From assembly GCF_016406105.1 (NCBI RefSeq), contig NZ_CP066308.1, positions 2,777,501 through 2,841,500 on the forward strand: a DNA stretch of 64,000 nucleotides. Reading direction: 5' to 3'. The notes below the pieces were generated by a model. The model searched no databases. It was not told the origin of the DNA and worked only from the letters and a program-made list of their open reading frames with translations. Positions within the stretch are counted from its first letter, which is position 1, and every line of letters starts with the position of its first letter. The position numbers and the translations under genes are program-made. The stretch comes from Brevibacillus composti. Lineage in GTDB: Bacteria > Bacillota > Bacilli > Brevibacillales > Brevibacillaceae. Below, one piece after another: positions 17,619 to 19,644 of the stretch.

Positions 17619-19644
<2,026 letters not shown>

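Follow-up and report, generated by a model that had tools for sequence, protein, structure and literature searches.

In Brevibacillus composti, a DUF502 gene flanked by dgkA and cdd is broken by a 10-bp tandem duplication, probably a recent frameshift

A perfect 10-bp tandem duplication interrupts a DUF502 gene in the genome holding the window, i.e. the whole 64-kb stretch of DNA that was analyzed. Patterns detected in this genome (G000; 4.47 Mb, 2 contigs, 99.92% complete, 1.13% contamination) and in its relatives are consistent with a genuine, recent loss-of-function frameshift produced by a short tandem duplication in a dispensable extra gene, and we give this explanation a probability of roughly three in four. 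A sequence-only reading had noticed the repeat and proposed that it acts as an on/off switch; its observation at 19310-19329 is confirmed and its interpretation is partly supported.

The duplication and the interrupted gene

Positions 19310-19319 are identical to 19320-19329, with TCCCGCGTGC occurring twice on the plus strand and no spacer between the copies, and TRF run on the window returned a perfect period-10 array of 2.0 copies at the same place. Direct reading and TRF thus agree with the earlier description of an exact, direct, contiguous repeat where the frame changes. On the coding strand, which is the minus strand, the duplicated unit reads GCACGCGGGA, a 10-mer with 20 occurrences in the genome (both copies at 19310-19329 included) versus 5 for the reversed control, an excess that probably reflects composition and codon use. 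The 10 added bases (+1 modulo 3) divide the DUF502 gene into two halves, one with the membrane segments and one soluble (Table 1). In a functional DUF502 gene a single open frame would encode both the membrane segments and the soluble domain, and here the frames part at the repeat: the upstream frame runs on for 13 codons to a TGA stop at 19267, and the downstream frame is open for 25 codons before the repeat and onward until 18933, so that its end overlaps the start of cdd (18936).

Table 1. Coordinates in the window of the duplication, the two gene fragments and the neighboring genes
Feature	Position	Strand	Remark
Perfect 10-bp tandem duplication, two copies without spacer	19310..19329	-	shifts frame by one
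DUF502 gene, upstream fragment	19267..19653	-	two hydrophobic segments; out-of-frame end
DUF502 gene, downstream fragment	18933..19322	-	soluble domain, without hydrophobic segment
dgkA, upstream neighbor	19661..20044	-	PF01219
cdd (cytidine deaminase family), downstream neighbor	18529..18936	-	Pfam domain
era (GTPase with KH domain)	17619..18536	-	Pfam domains

That the broken gene belongs to DUF502, as had been claimed, was borne out by the match of the downstream fragment to Pfam PF04367 (E 1.4e-20, 73.6 bits against a cut-off of 23.8, profile positions 36-106); the upstream fragment on its own gave no Pfam match, and the intact genes of two relatives scored 107.5 bits (G004) and 103.3 bits (G021) against the same profile. 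Hydrophobic segments of both fragments were called from a simple hydropathy scan. When set against the intact proteins, the upstream piece corresponds to residues 1-111 and the downstream piece to residue 109 through the end, and there are 19 invariant columns in 13 DUF502 proteins, with 8 before the break and 11 after it. The predicted structure of the intact G021 protein (mean pLDDT 71.2, pTM 0.39) was too weak for a fold search. NCBIfam had no family for three DUF502 proteins, and neither its family names nor the literature, as covered by the openings of abstracts, yielded a described role for bacterial DUF502 proteins; plant COV1 proteins are linked to DUF502.

The start region also differs among genomes, with a CTG at 19653 in G000 where G021 and G004 have ATG. 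Start-codon loss was considered as a second lesion and is probably not one, given a conserved GTG at 19644, three codons on and 10 nt from an AGGAG, which is common to the three genomes and is probably the true start of the upstream fragment. In the downstream frame the earliest candidate starts are two GTG codons. The one at 19247 has no clear ribosome-binding site, and the one at 19238 has AGGTGG a few bases upstream and lies 28 nt past the upstream-frame stop.

Pfam domains gave the minus-strand gene order ybeY - dgkA - DUF502 - cdd - era, with a PhoH-like gene identified by eye 5' of ybeY; the name era is presumed from the pairing of a GTPase with a KH domain. The gene had been placed inside an essential dgkA-cdd-era operon, and its position between dgkA and cdd holds, with the word "essential" overstated: dgkA and cdd are usually non-essential and era is often essential. 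A promoter scan found a single minus-strand site, at 18555-18528, which is within chance (1 seen versus a mean of 1.4 expected). Terminator-like sites numbered 7 against a mean of 2.8 (sd 1.6), with plus-strand and in-gene sites included in the count, and three such sites on the minus strand, from 19733, 19506 and 19443, fall within dgkA or the broken gene.

The course of events suggested by these findings begins with replication slippage, which would have doubled 10 bp midway through the DUF502 gene of the operon. Flanking microhomology was absent, the match run being exactly 10, and a 70-nt segment spanning the duplicated site folded no better than shuffles on either strand (z 0.46 and 0.01), so that hairpin-driven duplication was dropped as a candidate. 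Without flanking microhomology or an unusual hairpin, slippage is proposed as the origin on general grounds. Once doubled, the unit would put the ribosome out of frame until the stop 13 codons on, and the main product would be a membrane stub lacking the soluble domain. Re-initiation at the GTG at 19238 might yield a soluble piece of 101 residues, which would lack the membrane portion as well as the residues near Y113. The DUF502 stop adjoins the cdd start in G021 and lies 71 nt before it in G004; in G000 translation of DUF502 would end 330 nt before cdd, and so early a stop may weaken coupling to cdd and era.

It could alternatively be proposed that programmed ribosomal frameshifting yields a full-length DUF502 protein despite the duplication, as the repeat lies in a stretch that is open in both frames and TGA is the stop codon of the upstream one. 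Such an event would require a +1 shift, no known slippery site was recognised by eye, frameshifting at the stop would put other residues in place of the segment with the invariant Y113, and the five relatives with the gene have no need of a shift. Of all the explanations weighed here this is the least probable, with a likelihood close to nil.

Relatives, need for the gene and age of the break

Comparison with relatives at the site, which the sequence-only reading had proposed as a check, found a single copy in G021 and G004 (GCCCGCGGCG and GCACGAGGCG, respectively) with an uninterrupted frame, a single copy at the DNA level in G027 and G033, and an uninterrupted gene at the protein level in G031. 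The operon-type DUF502 gene was free of stops in all five relatives found with it (5/5), and in each it adjoins cdd. Single-copy relatives (n=4, DNA) and an open frame (n=5) are the pattern expected if the G000 gene became a pseudogene by tandem duplication. The sequence of the 10-bp unit varies among relatives, and the four inspected at the DNA level had no repeat tract. Two short peptide patterns, scanned against named genomes, located the gene in a single record, that of Brevibacillus borstelensis NRRL NRS 818, and a plasmid search returned distant matches only, all below 60% identity.

Within the genus, the gene is more often missing than present at this place. In 23 of 26 genomes the interval from dgkA to cdd, 68-173 nt between aligned ends, contained no DUF502 match; a DUF502 gene lies there in the other three, one of which is the broken copy in G000. 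Over the family, an operon-type match was found in 6/39 genomes with G000 counted, the dgkA-cdd gap itself having been examined in 4 of the 13 genomes outside the genus. A DUF502 match of any type was found in 25/26 genus genomes. G000 has a second complete DUF502 gene at C1:2663804-2664229 (open frame of 215 codons in one search, ORF of 210 aa in another), 30-34% identical to the operon type, and one further match that is weak (E 3.5e-4) and contains three stops; G004 has the operon type only. Because 23/26 genus genomes are without the gene at this place and another complete DUF502 gene is present in G000, the operon gene is, judging from gene content, a dispensable extra whose absence is common in the genus. 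The cell may tolerate the break for this reason, and the presence of the second gene suggests that it could cover for the broken one. Next to cdd, operon-type DUF502 occurs here and there in several genera (L002, L003, L050, L051, L052) and is absent from most family genomes searched, a pattern of patchy loss or transfer.

The age of the break was approached through dN/dS by the Nei-Gojobori method, with the halves scored separately; some synonymous distances are near saturation, which makes the ratios rough. For the N half, G000 gave 0.083 against G021 and 0.138 against G004, with 0.093 for the intact pair, and for the C half the corresponding values were 0.028, 0.059 and 0.012. The neighbors era, cdd, dgkA and ybeY ranged over 0.027-0.158. 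Lineage-only changes over both halves (205 codons) came to 45 nucleotide and 13 amino-acid changes in G000, 54 and 12 in G004, and 46 and 3 in G021, so that the amino-acid share among own changes is highest in G000, with G004 close behind. Neither half shows a clear relaxation of selection, which implies that the break is young relative to the species split or is absent from the living population. This fits recent mutation and assembly error equally well.

The proposed on/off switch

In the earlier interpretation, the DUF502 protein would be switched as slipped-strand mispairing adds or removes the second copy. In favor of such a contingency switch are the direct, contiguous and frame-shifting nature of the repeat and the absence of visible decay of the gene by dN/dS. 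There are only two 10-bp units, the relatives inspected have no repeat, the unit is not conserved among them, and the gene is absent at this place in 23/26 genus genomes. A phase-variable locus would be expected to show a hypermutable repeat number and a tract that is kept or varied among relatives; what was found is 2.0 copies, to be read by analogy with the class table of PMC4235727, and a single non-conserved unit in the four relatives examined as DNA. In the available text of that source (Bidmos and Bayliss), two copies of a 5-mer are "mutable", at 1e-7 to 1e-5 per division, and at least three copies are "hypermutable", the class responsible for phase variation; two copies thus fall below the hypermutable class, with extension to a 10-mer being an analogy, since a 10-mer pair is not clearly listed in that text. 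A literature search for mutation rates of two-copy repeats gave nothing usable.

A tandem repeat of two copies can lose one of them, and since every short tandem duplication may revert in this way, reversibility does not point to a switch. The second copy here could in principle be lost, as a rare chance event and not as a programmed switch. For lack of repeat number, conservation and sign of switching, the switch was dropped as the leading account; we regard it as improbable, and the claim as unsupported. Slightly more improbable still is a two-copy repeat serving as a low-frequency reversible off-switch of a membrane protein gene that also tunes cdd and era through lost translational coupling.

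Tandem duplications have also been described elsewhere. The available text of PMC6686034 on S. aureus describes one isolate with an agrA duplication and no revertants, and one agrC mutant, with a duplication plus an inversion, that returned to wild type. For M. tuberculosis populations, the text available for PMC12817950 puts variation of few-copy promoter repeats of about 57 bp at 1e-2 to 1e-3 per chromosome; with long units, variation is therefore not ruled out by a low copy number alone. The agrC mutant and the M. tuberculosis repeats, which show that duplications can revert or vary, favor a switch to that extent, and the agrA isolate counts against one, as do mutants of Xenorhabdus. Tandem duplications of 26-116 bp accounted for three of the lrp mutations described there (PMC6786866); among 8 lrp mutants tested, no phenotypic reversion was genetic, and the available text does not identify the duplication carriers among the 8. 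The lrp cases are like the present one in that a direct, contiguous duplication disrupts a coding gene, and they differ in length, 26-116 bp versus 10 bp, the present case being one genome without a phenotype. Simple-sequence-repeat contingency loci as outlined in PMC4235727 likewise consist of a frame-shifting tandem repeat within an open reading frame; here, by contrast, there are two units, the relatives inspected are without the repeat, and there is no sign of switching.

A further parallel is pneumococcal capsule phase variation. Waite and colleagues reportedly described in-gene tandem duplications that switch capsule genes; the likeness is an in-gene duplication that is reversibly inactivating, in principle, and the difference is that reversion is said to have been measured there, whereas the duplication in G000 is a sequence observation. 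A plain frameshift would matter little, adding a further case of a short duplication that disrupts a dispensable extra gene, and it warns against taking a direct repeat for evidence of phase variation merely because it coincides with a frame break. If switching were shown in strains of the species, the finding would be more important and would hint at a role for DUF502.

Chance, assembly error and mobile elements

The 10-bp repeat taken alone is only mildly unusual. Of 200 sequences shuffled with an order-3 Markov model, 28 contained a perfect tandem pair with a period of at least 10 somewhere in 64 kb, as did 1 of 20 shuffled at order 2. The genomic background was sampled over 684 kb of the 4.47-Mb genome (the window and 31 stretches of 20 kb) and contained 39 rows of perfect tandem arrays with a period of at least 8, of which four had a frame-shifting period of 10 or 11. 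Such pairs are therefore not rare in G000, and the one at 19310-19329 is distinct in that it interrupts a conserved frame. A crude two-frame test flagged four arrays, this one among them; the other three were rejected as frame breaks, their frames when read by eye looking like normal gene ends or antisense. The coincidence of a repeat, a frame break and a single copy in relatives is not chance.

The main rival to recent mutation is an assembly or consensus error, by which the cell would have one copy and an intact gene and the second copy would come from misassembly or polishing. Of the G021 open reading frames of at least 120 aa, antisense ones included, 83 matched the window at 50% identity or more, and two of these were split over frames, namely the DUF502 gene and a frame antisense to the end of a gene named by eye as sigma-factor-like, whose own frame is intact. 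The DUF502 gene is thus the only real break among the 83, which means that the window is not riddled with frame errors. The window having no other real break against G021, the gene being intact in every relative found with it and the lack of clear relaxation in either half count in favor of an error. Against it, the assembly is near-complete, and a precise 10-bp duplication outside a homopolymer is an uncommon sequencing error, sequencing errors being usually of the homopolymer type. A mutation confined to the cultured stock might also account for the second copy. On balance an error is unlikely, and it deserves more weight than any other alternative.

A further possibility is that an insertion sequence once occupied the site and is gone, with both copies of a 10-bp target duplication left behind. 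Mobile elements are plentiful in G000, with 34 DDE_Tnp_1 matches, 25 of them above cut-off, and several multi-copy groups with equal scores. A 10-bp flanking duplication was found in none of 27 copies examined, taken from five groups among the 34 and covering DDE_Tnp_1 only. One group had 9 bp in 5/8 copies, one more 9-bp flank match was found where a second element seems to abut, and the remainder had matches of 4-6 bp or none. Clean excision that keeps both target copies is also rare. A mobile-element scar is accordingly very improbable, and a recent tandem duplication remains the preferred explanation of the second copy.

Several minor observations were made on repeats and mobile elements. 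One transposase gene, with a 411-codon open frame and equal scores, is present eight times (L128-L135) in elements of about 1.48 kb, and the 9-bp duplications flanking five of the eight suggest that these elements were recently active. A two-copy repeat of 11 bp lies at 16197-16218 (L043). In the window, a 9-bp unit, CTTCACGGA, is repeated 4.7 times without error at 1643-1684, with a period divisible by three, and overlapping T/C-rich low-complexity tandem arrays with TTCCTT-like units lie at 63085-63167.
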